Shown here: piece by piece, positions 1 through 22,170 of the stretch | Position numbering within the stretch: the stretch's first letter is position 1 | Layout of the letters: the number at the start of each line of letters is the position of its first letter | Source: Sporobolomyces roseus | Lineage: Eukaryota > Basidiomycota > Microbotryomycetes > Sporidiobolales > Sporidiobolaceae | NCBI GenBank assembly: GCA_016617785.1 | Contig: JADILM010000012.1 | Location: 698,486 to 762,485, forward strand | Direction of reading: 5' to 3' | Length of the DNA stretch: 64,000 bases | Notes under the pieces: model-generated | Database searches by the model: none | What the model was told of the DNA's origin: nothing | Seen by the model: the letters and a program-made list of their open reading frames with translations, nothing else | Program-made: the position numbers and the translations under genes

Positions 1-84
1 CGCCGAGTGCAAAGGTGAGGCAATCGAAAGAGTGAGTGAGGGGTGAGGAAAGGAGAGGGGAGGGGGAGAGCGGCAGCAAAAAGA

Positions 85-165
85 TGATCACATCCAGGTT
101 TGAACTGGAGACCTTGTCCGAACTCGATGTTAAGGACACGTGATGACCAACTACACCATGCGACC
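85..165 (-). tRNA. tRNA-Val(AAC) with a 7-nt intron, left-arm copy
   Basis: Identical to the right-arm copy at 6668-6748, where the fold is described. It reads outward from the palindrome centre, towards the window start. A run of five T follows on its own strand, as expected for a Pol III terminator. Confidence 0.92.
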
Positions 166-370
166 GTCGTATAGTGAGCGAGGCCCAACTGAACGTACAG
201 TATCAAATTGGTGTCAATCTCACGCGAAAAGTGACTGAACTTGATTTTGCAAGCCAAATATCCCCCATAAACAATCTCTGAGCGCGCAGGATTGACAGGG
301 AATTAGCTCAGCCCAGATAGAGGGGCCTCTTGTCCGAAAGCTTTCCCTGCAGAGCAACAAAAAGGGAGGT

Positions 371-442
371 TGCCCCCACACAGGATCGAACTATGGACCT
401 TTCGCTTACTAGGCGAACGCTCTGCCACTGAGCCATAGGGGC
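371..442 (-). tRNA. tRNA-Thr(AGU), left-arm copy
   Basis: A 72-nt cloverleaf without an intron, identical to the copy at 6391-6462. The anticodon loop CTAGTAA gives anticodon AGU. A T5 stretch follows on the minus strand. Confidence 0.96.
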
Positions 443-694
443 CGGTCGGAGCCGCGGCTTGTCAAGCAAACAGTATCCACTCTTGATCATTCTCGTCGCA
501 TTTGTCAACTTTGTTCGAATTCATCGTTGCTCGTGTCACGATTGGATCCAATCAAGGAATTGGTTCAAGATTACCACTTTCGGAAGAGCTCCACGGACAG
601 CTGCTGCTGGACACCGTTGAGAAAAAGCAAGCAAAGTACCGTACCTCAGGTACCTTCCCCTGCATTCCTCCTCGGGCAGCGAAGCAAAAGATGA

Positions 695-792
695 CGTCCA
701 GAGCAGGATTTGAACCTGCGCTCTGAAACAGAAACAGATGAGAAGCGAATGAAGATTCTAGTCTGTCGCCTTAACCGCTCGGCCATCTGGAC
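695..792 (-). tRNA. tRNA-Ser(AGA) with a 16-nt intron, left-arm copy
   Basis: Identical to the right-arm copy at 6041-6138. It has the long variable arm of a class II tRNA and a short intron directly 3' of the anticodon loop base 37. Confidence 0.94.
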
Positions 793-1161
793 AAACAATC
801 GGATAAAGAATCGCCGCTCAAGAAAACGTACACAATCAATAACGTCATCTTAGACGCATCTAAACATCTACCCTGCTCAAACAAGTCAATGATGGCAAGA
901 AACCTCTCATTCAGTTCACACAATAGGGGCCCCGTTCCCAGGGCTAACCAAGTTGGCCAATTTGACCAATTTTGTCCACACTGCCCCAACAAAGTAAGCA
1001 TGTCAAAACCTTCTGACTTCCGTTCTGTTCACACAAGTTTGGCCAATGACACCTGACGGCCATTGCACTTCTTTGCTTTATCAAGACTTTCTTTTGATGG
1101 CTAGGGCACTGTGGGCACAGATGTGGGCACAGAGACAGACGGCAGGAGTCAGATACAGTGT

Positions 1162-1536
1162 CTACTCAGCCACCTGATCTCTGCCGGCTTCAGTGTTTAT
1201 CAGATGGATTGGCCTGGAACGGAACTGCAAGTCCATCAGGACCCATGAACAGGACTCCGCGTTGATACACTGCCAGCTCACTTGCTGTTTTGTCCTCGCA
1301 CACAGAGGTAGAAGACCGACCAGCTCATATGTTGTAACATACTCTGGGCGAAGCACCGCAAGCTCATCAGTGAGAGAAAAAGTGGAAGGTTGATGTCTTG
1401 ACCAACATTCGCTCAATCGATAGAAGAGGTACAAAGCGTGTTGCAAACTGAGTTGTCTTGTAAAAGCGTGTGTAGCTCTACACAATGCAATAAAAGGGTG
1501 CTCACCTAATTGTCTCATACAAGTGCAGAGAGACAA
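1162..1536 (-). other. 124-codon open frame duplicated in both arms, coding status doubtful
   Basis: An open frame of 124 codons with an identical partner at 5297-5671 on the plus strand. Identity between the two simply follows from identity of the arms and is not evidence of selection. The predicted peptide is rich in Cys, Leu, Ser and Arg, shows no domain I recognise, and has no splice-site context. It most likely is chance, or a relic of the transposed unit. Confidence 0.2.
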
Positions 1537-1905
1537 TCCAAGCCGAGTGAAACGCGAAAGTGATTCAATCAGCTTTCGCTACGCGCGCTTTGCTGCAGCT
1601 TCAGCTTCGTCCGTCTCAATTCATCAATGCGTAACTGAGCAAGACTATTATGGCTTCACACAGAGGATGACGCAAAAGCCTCATATTCTGTAGTCTGCAG
1701 GGGCAGGGTTGCTTTGTTGTTCCAGTCTCCATTTTTGTGTATTATCCGCCATTGACTAGATTCCTCAAGCTGTGATATTCTTTCTCCGCCGCATCTGAGG
1801 CTCCCACAGAATATACGCTCTGCGCAAGGCTCAATCAAGATTATCCTACTGTATGAGATCAAGGTAGCCTACGCCAAACAGCAGCCTACCAGGCTCGCTT
1901 CCGCT

Positions 1906-4900
1906 GAATGCCTGGGCGTGTGCGCATTGTCAAACAAGGGGCGCAGAACTAGGGGCAAAGTCAGGGGTGGGTGTTATCCGCTGCTGTGTGTCAGTTGTAA
2001 ACCATATTTGATCATTCTCGTTGCAGTTGGCGGAAAGGCCTTCTGTTTCTACTGATGGAACACATTTGAAAGATTTGCGGCGGTTAATCCTTTGCGGACA
2101 ATTTGGAAAGAACGAAGTGCTGTGAGCAGTAGAGTAGCCTTGTTGTTACGTGCCTGTCCAAGGGTCGCTGAGTGTCTGCACTGGCACCCCAATGTATCAA
2201 GAGGTAGCTCTGCTGCGTGAGAAGGGAAAAATAAGAATGAGAAGCTGAAAGAAAGGGCGAAGAAAAAACTCACAAAGTCGCAAAGCGCGTTGATTGCGAG
2301 GCTGAAATTTAGGGAAATCGACAGAAAGGCACCACCTGTGTAGAGCCTGCGGATGAATTCGATCCAACACGGTAAACTCACCAGGTCCAGACACAATAAG
2401 GATTGACAAATGTTTGACTCATCTTACTTGGTGCAGTTATTTGTCTGCTTGATCCCGATAACAACAACTCTTTGAAAGTGGATCACGAAGTAATAGGCAT
2501 CCGCATTGTGTATTGGTGCCAGAGTGACCATGCTTTTCATCATCATGTTCTCCTCTTGACCTGCACCACTTTTGGATCCCTTTCTGGTTTGATCTCACTC
2601 ACCCTGTCAATCTGTGGTCTTGATAGCTACCTCATCTTGCATATCGATGTGGTTTACCCCCAAAGTATACAGCCATGACCCTCAAGCGTGCAGTATCCAA
2701 TCTGCTTGGACATGGCTGTGCTCTACTGTGTCCCCTGTTGTTGCATACTTCAGCTTGTAGCAGCAGCTGTCTATGCTCCTTGTATTTTTGCAAAGCAGCT
2801 TAGAGTGTAAACTCAATCTACTTGAAACAAGGTTGGGAGCTTGTGAAGTGCCGTGCAGCAATTCAGAACCTCGTTCTGCCAAGCCTACCTGTGAAAGACA
2901 CACTTATGACTGACCATCATGTTGCAGCAGACACTCTCAAGGATTAGTTACTTATTGTTATACATCACTTTTGCTCTTTTGTACTGATTCATTAGCTCTC
3001 TTCACTTCCGCTCTTTCTACTTTCTTTCCCTTCTCTCTAGCGCTTTACACCAAAGAACAGGTCCGTTTTTACTTTGTACTTTCATCTCGTAAACTCTGTA
3101 ATTTTGCCAGCACTTCACACTGGATTCAATACACCAAGTGAGGCTGTGTGGGTACGGTCACCCTAACCCCAACCTCAAGTTCTTTGCAAACTATCTGCCC
3201 ACAGTTTTTGTTTGTCTGAAGCTTGTCTGGCCTCCGCACACGTAATGACATACAGAAAGAAACAAATGTAAACCAGCAAATCATGAGTCTGTCGAGGGTT
3301 ATTTTGCAAGTCTGTAGTATGTCAGGATTATGTGGCCACCTCTGGCATGAGTCCATCATTGTCACCAGAGATCGTGCAAGTCCTGCAGCTTTATGCTGGG
3401 GCAAAAAAGTCAGACAGAGGAGAATTCCCAATGCAGTGCAGAAAGCCTAGATTTCAGGGTTAGGATTACGAGAAAATCCAGATAGCGGAATCCTGGCATG
3501 CAGAAGGAGAACTTCTGTGTGAGCACAGAACTTAAGTCAGAAACGTAGAGACACAGTTGAAATATTTTCGAGACTGGCTGTAATCTCATCTCAGCCATAC
3601 TCGACGATGTTGATCACGCAGTACAATCACATGCCAAGTAGTAAGATTCCAGGTCTTTGCGTGTCGATCTGTCGCTGCCACTTTTGTCTGATGCCGGACA
3701 TCGGGACACTGTCGATGCGACGTTCGCCTTTGTCTGCCAGCTCAGCATATATATCACACGGCGAATCAAAAATAGTACCCTTCTGTAGAAAGACACCAAC
3801 ATGTTCAATTTTTTGGCTTGTTCACTGAAGGAAGACCGACCTTGTGGAGCAGCTTTGCAGAAGCGAAAGGACAAGACGAAGAAACGCTTGGCACATATCG
3901 GACAAGAAGAAGAGCTAGTCAAGACTGTTGTTTCGATGTGGTGGCATGCAATGACTGAGAAATGGATAGACCTCAAAGCTTCATGTGTCAAATTGCTCTG
4001 GCGCACAGCAGATAAAGAAAGCTCAGGCAGAACCCAATATGAAGAGATTGGCCTGGGTAAGCGAGACAACTGCTGGTGCAGACTTTGACCATGAGTGAGC
4101 TGAATTGGATATGAGTCTGCACCGAACCCTCATTGCAAGCGAGAGGACCTACATTGCGTCCGCTCGAGCAGATTGTCAAGAAAGTTTTGACAGAAATTGC
4201 TGAAGGTCAGCTGATTTACCAATGTTGCATATCCAGACATGCTCCTCCCAATCATGTGCAGATTGGCAGCGGAGCACTGACACTGTTGACAAAGACACTT
4301 GCGTTGGCCAACGCTTTATTTACAGATCTTGCACAGCGGCCTTGAGGAGACATTCCACATCACGGGAGTTCAGGGCTATATCGGCATGAGCTGCTTCAAA
4401 CTGGAAGAATCGATGTCCGCTTTCATGGTGCTTCAGACCAGCCATCAGGGGTACTTGCTCCATGTGGGAAGTAATTATGGAGGTAAGCTTGCGTGGATTG
4501 TCAGCCTGTTGTGCTGCTTCCTTGACTATATTGTAAAGTGGCGCGTGTGGAATAAGAGTACAGCATAGGTTGAGAATAGTTGTGTGGTATCAGACAAAAC
4601 GGAAATATCAAATCCTGAACATCTGACATTCTGTCTTTTACCAGCGAGTCTCTCTGACTGGATAAGTGTATGAGAAGACATGCTCTCCATGGTGAACTAC
4701 TTGAGATGGGAAGAGAGTGGGAGAGCCGGAGTCATGGACACCTAGAAAACAATTCAAAAGAACAGAGGCAAGGTATAATCACAAGGTACGGGTCCTGTTC
4801 GGTCATAAAGTACAAATGGTCCATTTAGGCTTGAGGAAGTGGTGAGCTGTGCAAGCTGAACTAGTCTCAGGGAATGAGGAGGAACTCAAAGCCCTGCAAC
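1906..4900. other. Unique 3.0-kb loop between the inverted arms
   Basis: This segment separates the two arms and is single-copy within the window. It contains only short open frames in all six frames, none longer than about 150 codons, and I recognise no transposase, reverse transcriptase, integrase or helicase motif. Its base composition and lack of GTAAGT/GTGAGT-type donors followed by in-frame acceptors differ from the genic part of the window. It could be a decayed mobile element or ordinary intergenic sequence captured by the inversion. Confidence 0.6.
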
Positions 4901-6040
4901 AGCGGAAGCGAGCCTGGTAGGCTGCTGTTTGGAGTAGGCTACCTTGATCTCATACAGTAGGATAATCTTGATTGAGCCTTGCGCGGAGCGTATATTCTGT
5001 GGGAGCCTCAGATGCGGCGGAGAAAGAATATCACAGCTTGAGGAATCTAGGGCAAATTGATGTTGTCTGGTGTCTACTCAATGGCGGATAATACACAAAA
5101 ATGGAGACTGGAACAACAAAGCAACCCTGCCCCTGCAGACTACAGAATATGAGGCTTTTGCGTCATCCTCTGTGTGAAGCCATAATAGTCTTGCTCAGTT
5201 ACGCATTGATGAATTGAGACGGACGAAGCTGAAGCTGCAGCAAAGCGCGCGTAGCGAAAGCTGATTGAATCACTTTCGCGTTTCACTCGGCTTGGATTGT
5301 CTCTCTGCACTTGTATGAGACAATTAGGTGAGCACCCTTTTATTGCATTGTGTAGAGCTACACACGCTTTTACAAGACAACTCAGTTTGCAACACGCTTT
5401 GTACCTCTTCTATCGATTGAGCGAATGTTGGTCAAGACATCAACCTTCCACTTTTTCTCTCACTGATGAGCTTGCGGTGCTTCGCCCAGAGTATGTTACA
5501 ACATATGAGCTGGTCGGTCTTCTACCTCTGTGTGCGAGGACAAAACAGCAAGTGAGCTGGCAGTGTATCAACGCGGAGTCCTGTTCATGGGTCCTGATGG
5601 ACTTGCAGTTCCGTTCCAGGCCAATCCATCTGATAAACACTGAAGCCGGCAGAGATCAGGTGGCTGAGTAGACACTGTATCTGACTCCTGCCGTCTGTCT
5701 CTGTGCCCACATCTGTGCCCACAGTGCCCTAGCCATCAAAAGAAAGTCTTGATAAAGCAAAGAAGTGCAATGGCCGTCAGGTGTCATTGGCCAAACTTGT
5801 GTGAACAGAACGGAAGTCAGAAGGTTTTGACATGCTTACTTTGTTGGGGCAGTGTGGACAAAATTGGTCAAATTGGCCAACTTGGTTAGCCCTGGGAACG
5901 GGGCCCCTATTGTGTGAACTGAATGAGAGGTTTCTTGCCATCATTGACTTGTTTGAGCAGGGTAGATGTTTAGATGCGTCTAAGATGACGTTATTGATTG
6001 TGTACGTTTTCTTGAGCGGCGATTCTTTATCCGATTGTTT

Positions 6041-6138
6041 GTCCAGATGGCCGAGCGGTTAAGGCGACAGACTAGAATCTTCATTCGCTTCTCATCTGTT
6101 TCTGTTTCAGAGCGCAGGTTCAAATCCTGCTCTGGACG
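6041..6138 (+). tRNA. tRNA-Ser(AGA) with a 16-nt intron, right-arm copy
   Basis: The acceptor strands GTCCAGA and TCTGGAC pair fully and are followed by discriminator G, the usual base for tRNA-Ser. The D-arm contains GCCGAGCGGTTAAGGC, typical of class II tRNAs. Anticodon stem strands ACAGA and TCTGT enclose a loop beginning CTAGAA (anticodon AGA). The extra 16 nt before base 38 fit an intron at the standard 37/38 position. The variable arm folds as TCTG-TTT-CAGA and the T-stem is GCAGG/CCTGC. A T4 stretch lies 5 nt downstream. Confidence 0.95.
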
Positions 6139-6390
6139 TCATCTTTTGCTTCGCTGCCCGAGGAGGAATGCAGGGGAAGGTACCTGAGGTACGGTACTTT
6201 GCTTGCTTTTTCTCAACGGTGTCCAGCAGCAGCTGTCCGTGGAGCTCTTCCGAAAGTGGTAATCTTGAACCAATTCCTTGATTGGATCCAATCGTGACAC
6301 GAGCAACGATGAATTCGAACAAAGTTGACAAATGCGACGAGAATGATCAAGAGTGGATACTGTTTGCTTGACAAGCCGCGGCTCCGACCG

Positions 6391-6462
6391 GCCCCTATGG
6401 CTCAGTGGCAGAGCGTTCGCCTAGTAAGCGAAAGGTCCATAGTTCGATCCTGTGTGGGGGCA
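6391..6462 (+). tRNA. tRNA-Thr(AGU), right-arm copy
   Basis: A 72-nt intronless cloverleaf. The acceptor GCCCCTA pairs with TGGGGGC, followed by discriminator A. The D-stem is GCTC/GAGC, the anticodon stem TTCGC/GCGAA with loop CTAGTAA, and the T-arm contains TTCGATC. A T5 terminator lies at 6470-6474. It is 252 nt downstream of the Ser gene; the spacing suggests separate transcription. Confidence 0.97.
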
Positions 6463-6667
6463 ACCTCCCTTTTTGTTGCTCTGCAGGGAAAGCTTTCGGA
6501 CAAGAGGCCCCTCTATCTGGGCTGAGCTAATTCCCTGTCAATCCTGCGCGCTCAGAGATTGTTTATGGGGGATATTTGGCTTGCAAAATCAAGTTCAGTC
6601 ACTTTTCGCGTGAGATTGACACCAATTTGATACTGTACGTTCAGTTGGGCCTCGCTCACTATACGAC

Positions 6668-6748
6668 GGTCGCATGGTGTAGTTGGTCATCACGTGTCCT
6701 TAACATCGAGTTCGGACAAGGTCTCCAGTTCAAACCTGGATGTGATCA
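6668..6748 (+). tRNA. tRNA-Val(AAC) with a 7-nt intron, right-arm copy
   Basis: The acceptor GGTCGCA pairs with TGTGATC (two G-U pairs). The anticodon stem TGTCC/GGACA is perfect. The loop is 14 nt instead of 7; placing a 7-nt intron after base 37 gives loop TTAACAC and anticodon AAC. The T-arm TCCAG-TTCAAAC-CTGGA is canonical and the variable loop is AGGTC. A T5 terminator starts 3 nt after the gene. The intron is close to the shortest known for nuclear tRNAs. If no intron is removed, the 14-nt loop would make this a non-functional gene, but three identical copies argue against that. Confidence 0.9.
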
Positions 6749-6832
6749 TCTTTTTGCTGCCGCTCTCCCCCTCCCCTCTCCTTTCCTCACCCCTCACTCA
6801 CTCTTTCGATTGCCTCACCTTTGCACTCGGCG

Positions 6833-7450
6833 AGCTACCCGTCGGCGCTCCCGCGTAGTCCGGACTTCCTCCAGCCGCTCGCAAATTGCTGGTTTTCATG
6901 CACAAACCGGGAACACATCGAACACGAGTGTCAGACAAGAGTAACAAATAGCCGTATGAGAGCGTGTTGCTCTCGCTTGACAGCAAACAGTGTCTTCTCA
7001 GTAGCCTCGTGCAAAGAGGTCGAGCAAATCGAGCTCCGCAGAATTTGATTTTGCGTCACGCTTCCAATCTATCACAAGCAGGAGAGTGCGAACAACTACC
7101 TCCGCAGCGTTACGCTGGTTGTCACGGAGGAGATCGCTTGTGACTCGGGGTGATTGAGTGAACGGAATACAGAAAGATGATTGATTTCCTTGATTCCACT
7201 GCTTCTGAAAGAAGAAGACCTAATACGTGGTTCCGAGACTGCAGTATCGCCACTTGACGTCGCCTCAGGGACCGCTGCTTGCTGAACCTTGTTTGCTGAG
7301 CTTCCGAGCGTCAGCATTTTTCACCAGCAGTGTATTTGCTAGGAACCAGCTCCGAGACCTCTCGTTAGTTTGACTTCCGCCCGAGTGCACAGGACCTGAT
7401 GAGTCAGCCTAGATTACGGATGGAAATCATCGAAAGACGGTAGAACTCAC
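6833..7450. other. No supported gene between the right arm and the next gene
   Basis: Only short open frames appear and none continues through plausible splice sites. The sequence probably contains the 3' untranslated region of the minus-strand gene that ends at 7451. Confidence 0.5.
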
Positions 7451-9060
7451 TCAGCAATCATGCAAGAACTCGAGAATCGCTTCTTGAATCTCGTTCGAAT
7501 CAAACGACAAAAGACTGAACAGTTCGTGGACAACCTGTAAGATCCCCAGATTTTATCAGTTCACTCTGTGAGCAACAAAAAGCGAGGAAGAATGCGTACA
7601 TTCGTAATCCTGAAGCTCGTCGCGAATTCAACCTTTTCGCAAATCCCCTCGACTTCTCCACACCGTAAAGATTTGCGAGACGATAGATTGTACGAGGAGA
7701 GTACGGCGCAACTCCATGTTAGTCTCGCTGTCCAACAAGATTATTGTATCGCGTCCAAATCCAACTCTTCGGGCGAGACGAACTCGAGAGACTTGTTGAC
7801 CTCAGGTCTATCGAGCGCTTCTTGGCGTCCGACGGGAAGATTGGAAGGCAGGGTATCGAGCTGGGCGAGGGAAGTATAGAGATAGGCGAGCACTGCTCGA
7901 TCAGTCGTGAAGCTAAACATTCGGTCGTCAGCGAAGAGCAGGACAACGACTACGAGCTCGTACTCACTCAGATTCGATGATATCGATGACAAGCATGCAC
8001 TTCTCATTCTTTTCTGTATCCTGGCCCTCCGCTTCTTCAGTCGATTTCCGCTACGCTTTGAGGGCCAACCAGTGTTTCCCTCGACGTTGTTCTCCTCCTC
8101 AATCGATTCTCAAACATGACTCTGTGGGGCTGCAAATGGGATTACCCGGAGGTGTCAGAGCGAGGCAGTAGAGAAAGGACACATCTCGGTCGTCTCGGAG
8201 GCAAACGCCGACCTGAGAGAAGACGGAGGAATCCGTTCGAGATCCGAAGAAGCGGTTGCTCTTGGCTACTCCCGACTCAAACGCAAGCACTCGAAGTTTA
8301 GCCGAGCTGCGGCAGAGTGAAGGAAGATTGGTTAAGTTTGAAAGTAGGAGCACTCGACGGTGAGAAAGGTTTTTGAAGATGCATTCGAGGTTCAAGTGAG
8401 TTTCAGTTTCGAGGAAAGCGGATTCTCACGTATTCATCGTGTTGAGGCCTAGCGGTGTGATGTACGCTTACAGAGTTGTCATCTGACTCCGCATTCACGT
8501 CATCGCGATGCTGGCACTCGACGCCCTAATCAGTTGCGAAAAGACATCGAAAATGCTTTCGCTGGGTCGCATCTCTCGTCTACCATTCCCAAAGCATAGT
8601 ACTCAGTAGTGAAGGTATCGAAGATCGAAAGCGCGACGAGTGCTCACCAAGCAGGCCGTGAAAGTCATCGCTCGAAGAATGAAATTCTGGACGAAGGCAG
8701 CATCTTCTTCCCATTCCCGAGAACTATGGTCACTCAGTTAGCATGTTCAGTCTTTCGAAAAGGGGGCCGAGATCTTCAAAACTCACAGTCACTTCCCTTC
8801 ACTTCCCTTCACTTCCCTTCACTTCCCGACAACTTTGCGATTGATCCGTTTCGAGGCCATTTCCTCGTCTATAGAGACAGCAACGCTTCGTGCGATCAGT
8901 GAGCAATCTTTTGATTCTCTGTGATAGCTTTGACGAGCCCGAAGCGAGCGAGGCCAGGAGGTTTGGCGAGATCGAATTCTGCGTGAGGGGAAGAGCGATT
9001 GAACGGCGAATACTTCCTAGATGACGTCGAGCCGGCAATCGTAGCCTTTGCAGGATCCTC
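7451..9060 (-). CDS. Multi-exon protein of unknown function, exon chain only partly resolved
   Basis: Several minus-strand blocks look strongly coding. At about 8893-9060 a block reads DPAKATIAGSTSSRKYSPFN onward. At about 7800-7914 a block includes FTTDRAVLAYLYTSLAQLDT. The last exon, after an acceptor near 7537, encodes VVHELFSLLSFDSNEIQEAI and continues to a stop at 7451. Between them lie typical GTGAGT donors and short introns, but I could not join every exon in one frame, so the start and total length are uncertain and the gene may begin upstream of 9060. The acidic, leucine-rich C-terminus suggests a helical protein. I do not recognise a family. A 10-bp tandem repeat sits at one of its exon ends (8791-8827). 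Confidence 0.45.
8791..8827. repeat. 10-bp minisatellite, about 3.7 copies
   Basis: The unit ACTTCCCTTC is repeated without mismatch. Read on the minus strand, each unit contains AGTGAA, which resembles a weak splice donor, and the array lies where an exon of the minus-strand gene appears to end. Confidence 0.95.
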
Positions 9061-10223
9061 CGAGTAGACTAAGCGAGTGAATCAGCGGTTCAGAAAGTCG
9101 TGGTGAGTGGGAAGAGTTCTAGTTGAACGAACGGGAGTTTCTCCCTCTAGATCTTCACTCAGCTCACTCTTTCCAGCTCTGGAAACAATGGCGCAATATC
9201 TAAAAGTATCGAGGAACGGTCACTGGTGTACTCCCGTGAGTCTCGTTCTCTCTCGTCTTCCATCGCCTCAAACCGCTCCAGCTGATCTCGCCGCTCATTC
9301 TTCAACGCAGAACTTGCAATGACCTTTCGTTATGGTTGATGACACACTTCTACTACATTTACGTACCTTCTTGGCGAGCTCCGAGGTTTCCTTATTCAGC
9401 CGCCGACACTTTCTTCGTTTCTATTCTGCTGAACGGTTAATCAGCGTCGAATGGTGATCAAAGTCACGAGGGAGCTAGTGCGGTGTCGTCAAATCCCTCG
9501 GGACGGCTGGCTGAGCGGTCGCGAGGTACGTTCGATCAAATTCGCTCTATACATCTCGAGTTCTCGCCATTCACCCTCCTTTCTCTCCTCCAGCGCGCCA
9601 TGCCGATGTCGTTGCTCGATCGTACTGCTCCTCCCATCTCGTTACATCTATCTCGGCTGGGTTTACGGCTCGACAGGCGAACGTGAACCTGCAAGAGGCT
9701 TCATTTTCCTATTTCCCTCGATTTCGCCAATTTCACGTTTTCCGTCTTCTGCGACATCCAAAGTCGCTCACTCGATCCACGCTACTTGGAGGAGTCGAAC
9801 TCTGCTGCGCCTGCGACCTGCTTCTGCGCTTCATCGGCTCCCCATCACCTCGACAGGACACCGTCGAAAAGTTGGGGTGCAGCTTTTGATTTCGAGACCG
9901 TCAAGGAGCTTCAGTGCGCACTCTCTGGCTCGTATAGACGAAAGTATCGACTGTGCTCCCCTTCGAACCAGATTCGTTCCACTCTCGCATTTTCGTCTCA
10001 TCGACTCCAGACTCAAACTCCGACTCGTTCCCAGCAACAATCAGCTTCCTTCCCTGCGCTTCACCTTCCTGAGAAAACACGAATGGTCAGTCCAGTGCCT
10101 GTTCCCAAACACCCCTAATCCTCGCCGCGGAGCTTGCGGATCTCGGCTTTCGGTCGCATGTCTTCTTCGCTATCCTCTTGTTTCTCCCATCCGATACCCT
10201 TCCTCCTTCTCGCCAATCCCGTC
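9061..10223. other. Gap with a long but unconvincing open frame
   Basis: A 351-codon frame runs from 9451 to 10,506 on the plus strand, but its product is dominated by Ser, Arg, Leu and Pro, and its last 280 bases overlap the better-supported gene at 10,224 in another frame. A second frame at 9786-10,118 could be a 5' exon of that gene. I do not call a gene here. Confidence 0.4.
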
Positions 10224-10960
10224 ATGGTGGACATCAGCTATCCATCTGTCGACCTCAAAACACGCCTCGCGAATGATTCACTCAAACCTCTTGCCGCCAA
10301 CGAACGAGTCACAGCCTATCGGACGGAACAAACTAGTCACTATCACCAGGCTCTCGAGTACGAGAAACGAGCAGCGGAACTTGAACGAGCGATCCAGGAT
10401 CCTGCTCGTGAAGTACCGGTCCATCGGAGGAACTCTGTCGTCGGTCACCAATTCGAGCCACCTCTTCCTTCCGATCTCGAACAACACCGTCAGAACCGAA
10501 CCCTGATCGGCCTCTTGAAGGCTAAGGAGGATACTCAAGGTCGGGTGTTGACAGACGAGAACGGATACTTCAATCGATGGTACGATACAAGAAATCCTGA
10601 TCGCATTGTCGAGGTGAGTCGCTTTCGGGTCTGCTTGACGTTGTTTACTGACGATTCATGCTTGTACAGTCGAAATGGGTCAGCTTCTCGGATCCGGTGA
10701 ATCACAAGCACGCCGTTGGAAGGTTTTACCTCATTCACGATCAGTACATGCGATACCGCGACCCTACAGATCATGAGGATGGGAGGCAGGAGATCTTTGA
10801 TCCTGAAACCGGAGAGGTTAGGACGGTCCCTTATGTGGGCACTTTGACAAAGTGGTATCAGGAGAGAGCGGCGCAAAGGAATGGGAATGCTTATAGTATC
10901 GGACATCGAACAGCGAGGATCTGTGGGTTCGATCGTTGGGGTGCGACTCACTCCAAGTAA
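10224..10960 (+). CDS. Conserved-looking hypothetical protein, 226 aa
   Basis: Two exons, 10,224-10,613 and 10,670-10,960, join in frame across a 56-nt GT-AG intron (GTGAGT donor, TACAG acceptor) and end with TAA. The start is the ATG giving MVDISYPSVDLKTRLANDSL. The protein is hydrophilic, rich in charged and aromatic residues, with no signal peptide or membrane segment. The second exon is dense in Tyr, Asp and Arg (for example YLIHDQYMRYRDPTDHEDGR). I do not recognise a family. An in-frame upstream extension of 30 codons exists (from 10,134) but looks like 5' untranslated sequence. The clean frame, the intron and the stop make it a likely real gene. Confidence 0.75.
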
Positions 10961-11216
10961 TGGAAGAGATGGGTTTGAGCGTCGTGGTATTGAAGAGACG
11001 AAGACGGAGTAGCGAACATGAGTGGATTTATTGAGTTTGTTATTGGTTTCGTTCGTTGTTGCTCGCAGTTTCGTGTTCTCGCCGTTCTACTTCTACTCCT
11101 AAGCTTCGATATTTCGGCACGCCTGAAAAGTAATTCAATCGTATCTTGACAGAACGACAGAATGAACAGATTCTATTGCATCCTTCGAATGGAGAGCGCA
11201 GAACAGACGACACCGA

Positions 11217-12200
11217 CTAAAGTTGGCCATTAGTACAGATACCGCATTGAATGCAGTAGAGGTGAGAAAGATCACTGCGAGCGAGGCCACGCTCTCGCGG
11301 AGGCAGCACAACCTCATCTTTGAGACCGGTCAGTAACATAATAATTTTGTGATATTTGTCTTCCTTCACCAAGCTTTTGTACCGCTACGCAGACCGCTTG
11401 TGGTGCCAAGCAGGGCAGAGGTAAATATGAAACGGATAGAGAAGGGGAGGTAAACAATGCTCGCTTGCGAGTCCCTACGCAATCTAGCCTGACAAACAGT
11501 AGAAACTGGTGTCAACAGAGAGAAGGGGTAGAAGGCTCGCATGCAGATCCCCTTCTCTCCATTGGTGCAGTCCCCCAACAGTCTGATTGATATTAACCTG
11601 TTGACTTGCGAAAAGACAGCGATTGTCTCGCACTCCTCTTCTCGTCTCAACCTTGAGCGTTATAGGGACTGCCCGAAGGCGTTGATTTCGGCTCGAAAAG
11701 GGGGAATAAAGAAAGATAAAAGTGAAACGAGAAGAGCGACAAAAGAGAGAAGCGAGTGAAGAGAGAGAGAGGTGTAAGAATGGGGAAGGAGGGTGGGTAG
11801 GTCAAAGAACTTGAAGAAGGCAATAGAGTATAAGTACTACGATCGAGACGAAATCAAAGAGGGGGGATCTCCTGCCTCACCTTGAAGAAGGCGTTTAACG
11901 AGGTGGCTAGCGATAACTGCTGTGTGCCGTTTACCAGGAGCGGGAATGCGATTAGTGCGATTATCCCGATGGAAGAGAAGACTAAGGCGAACCTCGATTG
12001 CTTCCGATGAGTGTGAGTGTCTACGACCGATGAGAGCGAGCGAAAGCAAGCGATGAAGGTGTAAAGTAGACGAGAGGAGGAAGCGATGAGGAGGAGATGA
12101 AACCGCTCTAGAGACAATCGAAGGCTCCGCCGCATTCAGCAAACTGCCTAGCGAACGTGCTCCGACTGAAACGAGAGGGCGATAGACAGAGGTAGAACTG
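11217..12200 (-). CDS. Possible multi-pass membrane protein, exons not fully resolved
   Basis: Minus-strand blocks suggest a gene. Around 11,885-12,010 an open block includes the hydrophobic run RFALVFSSIGIIALIAFPLL and ends at a GTGAGG donor. Around 11,490-11,610 a block contains a cysteine motif GDCTNGEKGIC. Around 11,217-11,317 another block holds SVASLAVIFLTSTAFNAVSV. An N-terminal membrane helix, a Cys-containing extracellular loop and further helices would fit a SUR7/PalI-like eisosome or pH-response protein, but the diagnostic residues of that family are not clear and the reading frames could not be joined with confidence. Confidence 0.3.
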
Positions 12201-12464
12201 ACCGCAAGAGGGAATGTTGAGACTATGATTCGCGCGACTATTGTGCCAACTCCTCGCAAGCTCGTCAAAGGCAAAATCGATTAGCCGATCCTGATCCGCT
12301 CCGCTCTGAGGGGTCCGATGAGGCGTAGCGCACTGAAGAAATCCGAGATGAGCGTGTGTGAGTACTGGGAGCTGTCTATGAGCTCACCTAGCTGCGAAAA
12401 CTACGCGCTGCTTGCAACATTGCGTTGAGCTATATGGATTACAACAGAATCAGTCATCACACCA

Positions 12465-12551
12465 GCTCGATTGATCTAGTTGGTTATGATGCAGACCTAA
12501 TACTTTCACAAGTTCAGTCTGATGTCGGCGGTTCGATCCCGCCATTGAGCA
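12465..12551 (+). tRNA. tRNA-Ile(AAU) with a 13-nt intron
   Basis: The acceptor GCTCGAT pairs with ATTGAGC (one G-U pair), with discriminator A. The D-arm is ATC-loop-GAT, the anticodon stem CAGAC/GTCTG, and the loop begins CTAATA, giving anticodon AAU. A 13-nt intron after base 37 restores a 7-nt loop. The T-arm GGCGG-TTCGATC-CCGCC is canonical. A T5 terminator lies at 12,559-12,563. Unlike the Ser/Thr/Val trio it is single-copy in this window. Confidence 0.95.
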
Positions 12552-12563
12552 GTTTACCTTTTT

Positions 12564-13230
12564 CTTCTCGCAAAGAAGCTTTTCCTTTTGTTCCCGGTTC
12601 TATTGTCTGCCGCGCCGCACGAGATCAAGTACATGTTGACATATGTGTGACGATGACGACTCCTTCATGCGTGTCGCGTCTCGTTCACGAACTCTGTGTA
12701 AAGGAAAGCGAGCGTCACGGAATGGAGAGGAGACAGAAGTTGCAGTATTCATTCTCTGCGACTTCTACCAAGACGTGCCTGACTGGCTGACCATGTGCAT
12801 CTCACAACACCATCGATACGACGAAGCCCGTAGTTCCGTGAGAAAATGGCGAATGCGAATGATGAGACAGGAGACCAAAATGAAGCTCTCAAAGGCAGTG
12901 TGGGATCATCTCGGCTCAAATATGGCAGCACCTGGTCACTAGATCGTGATGACCAAATTCATTAGAGGGGGTAGCAGAGAATAACAAGTTGCAAAATTCG
13001 CTCATCGGCAATAGAACTATCGAGCAAGGACGATCGATCCGCCAGCTTGCGCAGATTACTTTCATTTGAGTGATACAATGGTACAAACCGCACAAAGTAT
13101 CATCTGCTGATCAAAGGTTGATACTGAACGGTTGTAGCGACTCGAGCCCGGAGATTGATTGCGTTCATTCCAGCGTTGCTGACCTAGATGAACTCAGCTT
13201 GGAACAGAGCGTGTAAAGGGGTGCAAAGGG
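12564..13230. other. No supported gene
   Basis: Short frames only. Immediately before the third repeat copy, the sequence AAAGGGGTGC is directly repeated at the junction (about 13,216-13,235). Confidence 0.5.
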
Positions 13231-13308
13231 GTGCAAAGGTGAGGCAATCGAAAGAGTGAGTGAGGGGTGAGGAAAGGAGAGGGGAGGGGGAGAGCGGCAG
13301 CAAAAAGA

Positions 13309-13389
13309 TGATCACATCCAGGTTTGAACTGGAGACCTTGTCCGAACTCGATGTTAAGGACACGTGATGACCAACTACACCATGCGACC
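13309..13389 (-). tRNA. tRNA-Val(AAC) with a 7-nt intron, third copy
   Basis: Same sequence as 85-165, including the 7-nt intron and the T5 terminator. Confidence 0.92.
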
Positions 13390-13594
13390 GTCGTATAGTG
13401 AGCGAGGCCCAACTGAACGTACAGTATCAAATTGGTGTCAATCTCACGCGAAAAGTGACTGAACTTGATTTTGCAAGCCAAATATCCCCCATAAACAATC
13501 TCTGAGCGCGCAGGATTGACAGGGAATTAGCTCAGCCCAGATAGAGGGGCCTCTTGTCCGAAAGCTTTCCCTGCAGAGCAACAAAAAGGGAGGT

Positions 13595-13666
13595 TGCCCC
13601 CACACAGGATCGAACTATGGACCTTTCGCTTACTAGGCGAACGCTCTGCCACTGAGCCATAGGGGC
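13595..13666 (-). tRNA. tRNA-Thr(AGU), third copy
   Basis: Same 72-nt sequence as 371-442, with its T5 terminator. Confidence 0.96.
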
Positions 13667-13918
13667 CGGTCGGAGCCGCGGCTTGTCAAGCAAACAGTAT
13701 CCACTCTTGATCATTCTCGTCGCATTTGTCAACTTTGTTCGAATTCATCGTTGCTCGTGTCACGATTGGATCCAATCAAGGAATTGGTTCAAGATTACCA
13801 CTTTCGGAAGAGCTCCACGGACAGCTGCTGCTGGACACCGTTGAGAAAAAGCAAGCAAAGTACCGTACCTCAGGTACCTTCCCCTGCATTCCTCCTCGGG
13901 CAGCGAAGCAAAAGATGA

Positions 13919-14016
13919 CGTCCAGAGCAGGATTTGAACCTGCGCTCTGAAACAGAAACAGATGAGAAGCGAATGAAGATTCTAGTCTGTCGCCTTAACC
14001 GCTCGGCCATCTGGAC
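13919..14016 (-). tRNA. tRNA-Ser(AGA) with a 16-nt intron, third copy
   Basis: Same sequence as 695-792. It is the tRNA gene closest to the divergently transcribed Snd3 gene (start 14,287). Confidence 0.94.
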
Positions 14017-14286
14017 AAACAATCGGATAAAGAATCGCCGCTCAAGAAAACGTACACAATCAATAACGTCATCCTAGACGCATCTAAACATCTACCCTGC
14101 TCAAACAAGTCAATGATGGCAAGTTACTATTCCTGGAGCGGATCTAACCCTCATTCAATCGTATTGAGGTAGTCAATACAATTCAATCCATTTTTGACTT
14201 TCCTTTCGTCAACTTCCATTCGATTATTCTGCCTCTTGACACTTTCAACCTATCTATATCCTCCCACTCTACTCCACAGATACACC

Positions 14287-15606
14287 ATGCCTAACCCTGC
14301 CATCACCAACCTCATGGTCTCCCTCGGAGCTATGCAAGTGAGTCCTTGTCCAGAAGCCACTCGCCTCGGGAAAGAGGCAAATCGGCCTCCATCAGTCGAC
14401 CAAGAGCGAGGAATAGGGCAGGTGAATCTGGGAACCGGCTAAGGATACCGGTAGAGGTGAAAGCGAAACGCTGGAGGCTTAGAAGAGCGCTGCATGGCTT
14501 GATCAAATCTAAAGGGACACGAGGCAGTTCAGATCTCGTCGCACCAAAGGGAGGGATGCCATGTAGGATGCCGTTCGCTATTCAGACGAGTAACAATCCG
14601 TCTCAAGCCAAACCAAAGCGCTTTATACTGACTACACCCTCGTTTTCAACTTTCCTTCCTTCGCCTTCTTTCTCGAACTTGTCCCCATTCTCTGCTCGCC
14701 TTGACCCGTAACCGTTCTTTCGCCTCTCCACCGCCTGACCGCTACCACGACCACTTCTCAATAAATCCGATTCGCTCACATCCATCAGATCGCTCGCAAA
14801 ATCGACTTTGAGGATCCTTCGGTACTCCTCTACGTTCGATGCCTCTACGTTGGAGCGCAATTGCTTTCTCTTGGTATCTACTACTACACAACCCTCAAAG
14901 TGAGTGCATCTTTCTTTCGCTTGACATCTTGTCCTGCTCTTTTCGCAATCCGTTTCACAAGCTAATTCTGCCTACTCTTTTCCCGCAGATCAAGCAAAAG
15001 AATGATCTCAAGGTGCTCAAGTACACTGAACCTGCCAAGCCTATGGTAAGTCTCGTGTCTCTGTTATCCCCTTTCGATGGGGCAAAACTAACGAAATCAT
15101 GCGATTCTCCAGTCTGGTGACGGCCCCACCACAGTCACGACTACTGTACGAGATTATGATCTTTCGCAAGCTTCAGCTGCTGTTCGATCGGTCCTCATGG
15201 GTTGCGCTTTCGTAAGTCGGCAGCACCTAATTCCCTTCCAAATCAAATCTCGCTCATTCCCTGTACCTGTTTCTGCCTCACAGATGGCATTCATGCATCT
15301 CTACATGAAGTACACTCAACCTCTCTTCATTCAAGGTATCATGCCCCTCAAATCGCTCTTCGATGCCAAAGTTAGTTTCTCCCTTTTTGTCCTCTCTTTT
15401 CGCGCTCGAGTGCTCAACGCTTCCCTTTCGCTTGTACCTTCCAGATCCTCAAGATCCACTTGTTCGGTCAACCCGCTACTGGCGATCTCAAGCGACCCTT
15501 TGAAGCTCCCGCTGGCATGTTCGGAGGTGGAGCTCCCGCTGCGAATGAGACTGAGACTGAGGCGCCCGCTGTCGAGGCAAAGAAGGAGGCTAAGAAGGAC
15601 AAGTAG
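14287..15606 (+). CDS. SND3: SND3/PHO88 ER-targeting membrane protein, 188 aa
   Basis: Six exons (14287-14337, 14789-14899, 14989-15045, 15113-15211, 15284-15370, 15445-15606) join in frame. The product matches the Pho88 family along its length. After a short N-terminal helix comes RKIDFEDPSVLLYVR, then a membrane helix (about residues 28-52), the hallmark TTVRDYDLSQ, a second hydrophobic stretch with MAFMHLYMKYTQPLF, and KIHLFGQPATGDLKRPFEAP before an acidic/lysine-rich tail. In yeast, Snd3 works with Snd1 and Snd2 in the SRP-independent route that delivers proteins to the Sec translocon; the older name refers to phosphate uptake. The first intron is 451 nt, several times longer than the other introns of this gene. 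The tRNA-bearing repeat ends just upstream. Confidence 0.96.
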
Positions 15607-19914: not shown

Positions 19915-22170
19915 ATGTCTTCTGCTTCATCCTCGAGACAGTCACTCGTCGTATCTCCTGTCCCTCCTTCAATTTCAACTCGACCTCGCACCCCTTCTTC
20001 AGAACGTATCAATGGACCACGCATCACTAGACAATCCTCTCTACACCTTACAGATCCTGCCCTGATTCAATCTACACGCGCTCCTTCTCCCTACTCGAAT
20101 CGACCTCTTTCAACTTCAAGTTCGATTCCCCTTTCTACTTTCACAACTACCGCTACCGCTCCTCCTCCTCCTACGAGTCCAGTACGGGGTAATGGTCCAA
20201 TCATTACGAGGGTTCAATCAGTCATGGGAGAACCACCCATTTTAGGGAGACCTAATTCACCCCCTCCTCTCATTCAACAATCTCAATCAGGTTCTCGTCC
20301 CCTCGAACCCAGGTCTACCTCGATGAGAACGAGACAACGTAGTCAATCATCAGATACAAATTCAGAAGGAGAAGAAATCATTAGAGTTGGAACTGGAGGA
20401 ATGGGAACTAGGAGGAGTTCAAATTCATCACTTCAGAACAAAGCAAGAGCGATAGGTCACGCGAGGGATCAAACGAGTGAATCTACGACCGCCGACTCGT
20501 TCCGCACTCAAACAACTCAGTGGAATGGTGGATTCACTCCGAAAGCTTCACAAGATCCTTTGATCTCGCAGAGAGAAATTCAATCTTCTTCTCTCCCTCC
20601 TCCAGTACCAACCATCCCTTCTTCCGCTCTCACTCCCTCTCAATCTCAGCAACCAGAAGAACAAGAGAAACCTTTCCAATCCTACCATTCTCCATCTCCT
20701 GCCCCTCCCGCTCAACCAGCTCAATCCCATTCAATCCCAATCCCAATCTCTCAACCCTTCATTCACGTCCCCACCACTCCAATTCTCTCCCCCTCCTCAC
20801 GCCCACTGAAACGCTACGAACTCCATCAAGGTCGTAATCGATTCCTTTGTGGAGGAAGACTCATCACTTCAAAAGATAATCCTTTACCTTTCATTGGGAG
20901 TCTAGGAGTCGCAATAGGATTACCAGGGATGTGGTTTGCGTTCACTGGGAGAGGGTTGTGGAGGGATGACGAAGGGGCGTTTGGGGGAAACGGAGGGGGA
21001 AAGGCAGTAGTGATTGTTTTCGCTTATTTGACGTTAGTGATGTGGTCGAGTATGGTGAGCCGCTCTCTCTCTCTCTCTCTCACATGTCCCTGCTACAGAA
21101 AAGAGGAGAAGCTGATTAGATTGAGAGTAACGGCTCGATAGTTGAAAGCTTCCCTCTCAGATCCCGGTATCTTACCTCGTAATCTCGACCCAACACCTCA
21201 ACGGAAATATATCGAGAACGAAGATGCACTCACAGCTGGTGGAGAAAAAGGAGTTAGTGGGGGTCAGTTCGTGGCGGAAACTAAATATTTGAGAGTTAGG
21301 GATGGAGTAGTCGGGTCAAAATGTACGTTTGCGGTTTCTCATATACCCAGTGAATGGTCACTCAGTATTGTGGGACTCTTCGTTCAGGGTGCGAAACTTG
21401 TGAGATCTATAGACCACCGAGGACGAGTCATTGTAGGTTGTGCGATAATTGCGTCGAGTTGACGGATCATCATGTGAGTCGCGCTCATTGCTTGCACCCC
21501 CGTTGCTCTCCGGAGCTGATGTGAATTCAATTTGAGGGGAACTCAGTGTGCTTTCCTCAACAACGTAAATCTGCTTTTCTCACTCTTCTCCTTCCTCTCC
21601 TTTCTCATACGAACTCAGGTCCCCCTTCTTGTAGTGCATAGGTCGACGCAACTACTTCCCTTTCCTGTCCTTCCTCTTCTCCTCAAACCTCCTCCTCCTC
21701 TACTCGATCTCCTTCACAGCTTACTACATTTCCCTCACTCCCTCTCGACCCTCTCGTTGGGGTTCAATCGGTTCTTACATCCTCTTGGTACTGTTGGTAG
21801 GAGTTATGGTACCCGTTGGTGGGTTGGGAATGTATCATGCTAGATTAGTATGGAAGAATCGAACTACTATAGAAATGGTTTGTCTCTCTTCCCTTCCTCT
21901 CCCTTCCCTTATCATCGTACTGATATGAGCTGATGGGGATAGCTTCGACCCAAATCTGCTCGAGGTGGTTTGAACCCTTCGAATGGAGAAACTATTTCTA
22001 ACTTGTTTGAACTCTCGAGTCCTGGAAAGAACTGTATGGCTGTTGTGTGTAGGCCTGGGTTGGGAGTGGGAGGAAGAGGCGGATGGAGAGAAATTGCGGG
22101 GAGGGACGCGAGGAAAGGGGGAGAGGAGGAGGAGCAAGAGAGAGGGGGGAGAGGGAAAGAGGGAGTTTGA
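19915..22170 (+). CDS. ERF2: DHHC palmitoyltransferase, ERF2-like, 631 aa
   Basis: Six exons: 19915-21054, 21142-21322, 21388-21473, 21547-21564, 21635-21877, 21943-22170. A Ser/Pro-rich disordered N-terminus (about 300 aa) precedes [20 protein letters not shown], a segment typical of Erf2, then two membrane helices (about 325-380). The DPGILPR motif begins exon 2. The cysteine-rich domain runs from residue 441 ([16 protein letters not shown]) to the DHHC motif at 467-470 and continues FLNNCIGRRNY. Two further helices follow, then a Gly/Glu-rich tail. Erf2 with Erf4 palmitoylates Ras on the ER/Golgi membranes. The catalytic cysteine C470 is encoded by an 18-nt microexon (21547-21564). The acceptor at 21,634 was chosen over one at 21,618 because only it gives the conserved CIGRRNY. 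Confidence 0.94.

Follow-up and report, generated by a model that had tools for sequence, protein, structure and literature searches.

The locus that opens this stretch of Sporobolomyces roseus DNA raises the question of what a long, almost perfect inverted repeat (IR) with tRNA genes in both arms is doing near a chromosome end, and what keeps its arms alike. The window, by which we mean the whole 64,000-nucleotide stretch analysed, is C12:698486-762485, where C12 is contig JADILM010000012.1 of assembly GCA_016617785.1 (22.4 Mb, 15 contigs). Its start cuts through the IR, which in full occupies C12:691623-712832 (21.2 kb). The original prediction described almost identical arms of about 1.9 kb around a loop of about 3.0 kb. 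The loop indeed measures 2,993 bp, and the near-identity holds, with 100% complementarity over 1,760 bp (window 1-1760 and 5073-6832) and 99% along another 151 bp (1756-1906 and 4900-5050); the length of 1.9 kb is right for these matching inner parts and wrong for the full arms, which extend over 8.8-9.4 kb. The outer boundary had rightly been sought to the left of the window, position 1 being a mere window edge. The arms are too long and too alike to have arisen by chance, and the parts of the IR are these:

Window 1..1906: inner part of the left arm, which runs beyond the window to C12:691623 (whole arm 8,769 bp)
Window 1907..4899 (C12:700392-703384): unique central core, 2,993 bp
Window 4900..14347 (C12:703385-712832): right arm, 9,448 bp
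Window 11629..12280: 652-bp segment present in the right arm only, from the arm alignment

Compared along their whole length, the two arms differ by 9 substitutions, one 27-bp indel and one 652-bp indel. GC content is 0.461 in the core vs 0.499 in the arms. With introns allowed, ARAGORN identified 14 tRNA genes within the IR, namely two Ile genes and four Ser-Thr-Val trios, each trio lying in a copy of an 893-bp block; the Val and Ser genes of the trio have introns. Each arm has two trios in opposite orientations, the first 1.0 kb from the edge of the core and the second near the outer end of the arm, such that the arms are themselves partly palindromic. The expectation that each arm would carry the same three tRNA genes pointing outward was borne out by the inner trios, whose coordinates and strands, with those of other arm features, are as follows:

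Window 7..899: left inner trio block; Val 85-165, Thr 371-442, Ser 693-793, all minus strand
Window 5934..6826: right inner trio block; Ser 6040-6140, Thr 6391-6462, Val 6668-6748, all plus strand
Window 13231..14123: right outer trio block; Val 13309-13389, Thr 13595-13666, Ser 13917-14017, all minus strand
C12:691847-692739: left outer trio block, mirror of the right outer block; genes within 691953-692661
Window 12465..12551, plus strand: tRNA-Ile (aat) with intron; left-arm mirror at C12:693419-693505
Window 1377..1648, minus strand: element of about 270 bp in the left arm, from the genome search
Window 5185..5461, plus strand: mirror copy of the same element in the right arm, from cross-contig comparison
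Window 10224-10613 and 10670-10960, plus strand: exons of a two-exon gene in the right arm, mirrored in the left arm

The start codon and splice sites of the two-exon gene (window 10224..10960) were inferred from the sequence, and its predicted product is 74% identical over 99% to one database protein (P0015); the arms are therefore not gene-free. The right end of the window closes with TTAGGG repeats and thus marks a chromosome end, 49.7 kb beyond the IR. A bacterial or viral origin of this DNA is ruled out by the telomere, the tRNA introns and the Sporobolomyces proteins. Likewise, the IR is not a simple terminal palindrome, since it is internal and its plan recurs on other contigs.

This recurrence emerged from a genome search with window positions 1-2000, which gave mirrored pairs elsewhere; tRNA matches led to the IRs of C2, C5 and C11, and matches to the ~270-bp element led to those of C7 and C8. 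Measurement of full IRs on six contigs, C12 among them, gave total sizes of 9-21 kb, unique cores of 0.9-3.0 kb and arms of 3.2-9.4 kb. The five others are:

C2:637856-649639: core 1731 bp, 3 arm substitutions
C5:179298-194570: core 2460 bp, 9 arm substitutions
C7:188137-197117: core 2489 bp, 123 arm substitutions
C8:1542909-1553899: core 923 bp, 14 arm substitutions
C11:67773-82313: core 1364 bp, 7 arm substitutions

The larger counts are localized, with 116 of the 123 substitutions on C7 confined to the outermost 400 bp and 12 of the 14 on C8 falling within the last 80 bp adjoining the core. All six IRs have mirrored tRNA genes in their arms, and in five of the six the core is lower in GC than the arms. 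Arms are near-identical within a chromosome, but between contigs only tRNAs and elements of at most ~330 bp are common; arm sequences are thus chromosome-specific, and the tRNA set differs from one IR to another. The ~270-bp element is common to the arms of C12, C7 and C8 and to subtelomeres of C5 and C6. Telomere repeats at the end of C5 and the start of C6 identify these latter matches as subtelomeric and rule out a broken centromere there.

Inside the six IRs we counted 57 tRNA genes in 82.8 kb, vs 7 in the 180.0 kb read elsewhere, a biased contrast, since the IRs of C2, C5 and C11 owe their detection to tRNA matches. The fair control is therefore window 14348-64000, beyond the C12 IR, in which 0 tRNA genes were found. 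Density of open reading frames (ORFs) was 15-29 per 10 kb in the tested IR parts vs 34-42 in three control blocks. Stretches of C3, C4 and C10 in which no IR was seen are also ORF-poor (21-26 per 10 kb), and low ORF density therefore does not mark out IRs. None of 10 selected long IR ORFs matched a Pfam family, a weak test given that 9 of 10 comparison ORFs (five from the window outside the IR, five from C3, C4 and C10) were likewise below the curated cut-off; a separate Pfam search of 4 ORFs gave nothing informative.

A second shared feature is an element of about 190 bp in or near the cores, with two copies on C12:

Window 2922..3129, plus strand: main copy, leave-one-out E 1.3e-36
Window 4665..4795, minus strand: second copy, diverged and inverted, E 1.7e-9

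When the genome was searched with the C12 core, six non-self places were found (C5 twice; C4, C10, C11 and C3 once each), showing that this element is not a dispersed repeat. A profile run on the fetched loci added copies on C2 and C7 that the C12-core search had missed, bringing the total to eight loci on eight contigs (C2, C3, C4, C5, C7, C10, C11 and C12). Each copy was tested with its whole locus kept from the profile and a search space of 22.4 Mb; besides the C12 value, leave-one-out E was 4.5e-33 for C5, 7.4e-31 for C4, 2.5e-28 for C11, 1.7e-23 for C10, 1.8e-20 for C7, 1.1e-9 for C3 and 1.5e-8 for C2. The second copies of C10 and C12 and the mirror copies of C5 and C2 were never in the profile, and with the main C12 copy also left out, the second C12 copy scored E 5.5e-8 at genome size. 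The element lies in or at most 1 kb from the core in five of the six measured IRs, C8 being the absent case; four of the five non-C12 IRs bear it, and all five had been fetched before the element was known. A profile scan of the C8 and C9 stretches and of window 15001-64000 found no match at E <=10. On C3, C4 and C10 the element sits where the 10 kb read shows no IR; on C4 a G-alpha exon lies ~1.8 kb from it, and a copy of the 652-bp segment of the C12 right arm, 94% identical, lies ~250 bp from it. Under random placement, five further element loci on distinct non-C12 contigs would arise with P ~0.23, and the spread over contigs is therefore not evidence on its own.

Taken together, a unique core, mirrored near-identical arms, symmetric tRNAs and a shared core element fit the plan of fission yeast centromeres better than the other structures considered. 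We therefore think it probable, judging from this anatomy, that the C12 IR is a regional centromere of the fission yeast type, in which recombination homogenises the arms and the tRNA genes serve as chromatin barriers. The site of CENP-A nucleosomes and the kinetochore would be the unique 3-kb core, or a domain of ~5 kb limited by the inner trios if the inner arm segments up to those trios are counted. Pericentric heterochromatin, possibly guided by small RNAs, would cover the mirrored segments between the inner and outer trios, with the outer trios bounding it; the Pol III-transcribed trios would serve as barriers between domains. Arm identity would be kept by recombination within the centromere, either through gene conversion or through crossovers in which the core is flipped. 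It is from the layout that we infer CENP-A binding, heterochromatin and barrier activity, together with the mechanism of recombination. The original prediction saw in the structure a source of hairpin-mediated breakage near a chromosome end, and so missed its likely function; the rest of the IR and the other chromosomes were out of its view. Inversion of the loop, which it also raised, may occur.

The genome encodes candidate components of such a system. A multi-exon gene for a CENP-A-like H3 variant lies at C7:220.8-221.4 kb; the best PDB match of its product is S. pombe Cnp1, narrowly (156.5 bits vs 155.0 for canonical H3). Relative to H3, the N-tail of this protein is divergent and its loop 1 is longer (DFFDGDDSGNHVGLRWQ). 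C4 and C2 encode the motifs of canonical H3. An Argonaute (Piwi-domain) gene is present on C1. Pre-SET matched nothing in this genome nor in any control genome, and this result hence says nothing.

The original prediction offered three origins for the likeness of the arms, namely extreme youth, gene conversion and mis-assembly. Gene conversion is the best of the three, and the other two are less likely given six IRs with different arms: six simultaneous recent duplications are less likely than ongoing conversion, and a single assembly fault would have to recur with unique cores and private arm differences. Moreover, only 9 substitutions in 8.8 kb of C12 arm, indels apart, suggest maintenance in the present day.

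The most serious weakness of the centromere reading is the number of IRs per chromosome. C14 and C15 look mitochondrial, with 28-kb-spaced tRNA arrays among the tRNA matches listed, and C13 shares a 62-bp stretch with both; 12 contigs are therefore presumed nuclear. IRs were measured on six of these, with hints on three more: mirrored matches on C1 (2.03 Mb) and C4 (1.27 Mb), and on C9 arms of only 0.5 kb, 18.6 kb apart. On C3, C6 and C10, of which 10 kb each was read, no mirrored pair came to light, and self-comparison of 10 kb each of C3, C4 and C10 for faint IRs gave no inverted match. C7 shows signs of two tRNA-bearing IRs, with mirrored tRNA genes recurring as a pair at 384-392 kb, and C2 and C8 perhaps do so too, the possible second loci being a mirrored element pair at 1388-1391 kb on C2 and a mirrored tRNA pair 25 kb apart at 1582-1607 kb on C8. 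The notion of one IR per chromosome may thus be false. Our confidence goes no higher than probable because C7 apparently has two IRs, none was found on three contigs, and a gene lies inside the C12 arms.

The same observations lend themselves to another explanation, rather unlikely in our judgement, in which tRNA-rich segments were duplicated in inverted orientation and gene-converted, several per chromosome, with no role at the kinetochore. The additional mirrored tRNA or element pairs seen on C7, and less surely on C2 and C8, favour such a process, as does a gene in the C12 arm, and the histone H3 gene matches on C2 also form an inverted pair, 8.4 kb apart. This explanation does not account for a core element common to five of six measured IRs or for unique cores of similar size, and several tRNA genes, e.g., C5:688932, are without a partner among the matches listed (63 of 1095 candidates). 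Improbable, by our reckoning, is a mixture in which the C12 IR is a former or optional centromere and the active one lies elsewhere on C12. In its favour, element loci occur both with and without an IR and some contigs may hold several IRs, but C12 arms that, apart from two indels, differ by so few substitutions speak against a disused structure. We give very little credence to a large mobile element or recent palindromic duplication in which the loop inverts or fold-back breakage occurs close to the telomere: the near-identical arms, the telomere 49.7 kb off and the short elements common to arms and subtelomeres would suit it, but arms differ between chromosomes, pieces shared across contigs do not exceed ~330 bp, and the selected IR ORFs hold no Pfam family (a weak point, as comparison ORFs behaved alike). 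Least credible of all is an assembly that mirrored one real arm, in the face of a unique core, private arm differences on C12 (both indels and the substitutions) and the same plan with its own sequences on five other contigs.

The centromere reading invites comparison with known systems, as they appear in the accessible parts of the accounts cited. In S. pombe, inverted otr/imr repeats surround a core, tRNA-Ala/Glu barriers stand between core and heterochromatin, and recombination has been suggested as the cause of perfect arm identity (PMC4059236). The C12 IR resembles this cnt/imr/otr arrangement in its unique core, inverted near-identical flanks and symmetrically placed tRNAs, but the IRs here span 9-21 kb vs 40-100 kb there (PMC7292649), the trios are repeated near the outer ends, the host is a basidiomycete, and heterochromatin is only predicted. 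In C. tropicalis, cores of 2-5 kb are flanked by IRs of 2-5 kb with arms near-identical within one chromosome (PMC4741521). Homogenisation within each chromosome is common to both species; in C. tropicalis, however, the likeness of arms and cores extends across chromosomes, whereas here different chromosomes have only tRNAs and short elements in common, and the part of the C. tropicalis account at hand makes no mention of tRNA (PMC4741521). Both C. tropicalis and C. parapsilosis have homogenised IRs that mark centromeres bound by CENP-A (PMC4741521, PMC7292649, PMC7263194). Komagataella phaffii is described as having 1-kb mids and 2-kb IR flanks with nothing shared between chromosomes, and C. 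parapsilosis as having unique mids with partly shared IRs (PMC7263194); compared with both, the arms here are longer, tRNA genes are dense and mirrored, and there is a shared core element. Furthermore, centromere locations are polymorphic in C. parapsilosis (PMC7263194), which mixes IR and non-IR centromeres (PMC7292649, PMC7263194), and some budding yeasts have IRs at only part of their centromeres (PMC12711049). Such mixed systems allow for the gaps on C3, C6 and C10 and are not evidence for our reading.

Within the same phylum, two kinds of centromere had been reported by 2020, a large regional one in Cryptococcus and Ustilago and a short regional one, with an AT-rich core, in Malassezia, whose centromeres share a short motif (PMC7025860). 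The proposed centromere would likewise be regional, but differs from those of Cryptococcus (large, transposon-rich), Ustilago and Malassezia in its tRNA-bearing IRs, none being described there in the accessible parts of the accounts. Our search of the open-access literature found no report of tRNA-bearing IR centromeres in Basidiomycota.

Dh-like repeats of S. pombe seed heterochromatin at both centromere and telomere sides. Tentatively, and on comparison of layouts, we raise the possibility that a basidiomycete red yeast independently reached fission-yeast-like centromeres, in which the ~190-bp cis element tags cores, tRNA barriers stand on both sides of each arm, and the element shared by arms and telomere sides could seed heterochromatin at both places. 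IR centromeres are known from several ascomycete yeasts and tRNA barriers from S. pombe; a basidiomycete case, if true, would be a further origin. Whether mirror symmetry, tRNA barriers and homogenised arms are required for function or are accidents of history could then be tested, and the Sporidiobolales would gain centromere candidates.

Beyond the IR, relatives of the ORF at window 19915-21138 bear the DHHC palmitoyltransferase domain PF01529. Its product is 93% identical to one database protein and 69% identical to a Sporobolomyces roseus protein, in keeping with a Sporobolomyces-like basidiomycete host (Sporidiobolales); other named Sporobolomyces proteins among the matches listed reach at most 47%.

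The inverted-repeat arms share sequence with subtelomeres. Sequence comparison identified an element of approximately 270 bp that is common to the arms of the large tRNA-bearing inverted repeats on contigs C7, C8, and C12 and to the subtelomeres of C5 and C6, with the following C12 and subtelomeric copies:

Copies of the ~270-bp element
Window 1377-1648, C12 copy
Window 5185-5461, C12 copy
L027 (stretch of C6) 128-412, subtelomeric copy
L028, C5:1876531-1876794, subtelomeric copy at the C5 end

Across 264 bp the two subtelomeric copies are 100% identical; the copy on C8 matches that of C6 with 99% identity over 153 bp.

Two further segments lie within the C12 arms. A two-exon gene (window 10224-10960) is present in both arms, and a protein search returned two relatives, one with 74% identity over 99% of the query and the other with 79% identity over 52%; named Sporobolomyces proteins were absent from the matches. 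A 652-bp segment (window 11629-12280) occurs in a single C12 arm only, and a copy with 94% identity lies close to the ~190-bp core element on C4. This segment may be a mobile insert; a clear target-site duplication was not seen.

In C6, where an inverted repeat was not found, elements from the arms of both C8 and C11 have weak matches no more than 1.2 kb apart at C6:821391-822596, a stretch that is a candidate for the place of the C6 centromere. C2 has two histone H3 gene matches with equal scores, inverted relative to each other and 8.4 kb apart:

Histone H3 gene matches on C2
L031, C2:580749-580973, minus strand, match 1
L032, C2:589420-589644, plus strand, match 2

The distance from this pair to the inverted repeat on C2 is about 48 kb.

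The C11 arm contains a 214-bp stretch (L025, C11:72286-72499) that matches its own reverse complement imperfectly, at 77%, as well as an internal palindrome made of Gly-Val/Val-Gly tRNA pairs. A 62-bp stretch of this arm has matches with 94% identity in C13, C14, and C15. C14 and C15 carry tRNA arrays with a period of approximately 28 kb, in both orientations in C15; these two contigs are probably mitochondrial concatemers.
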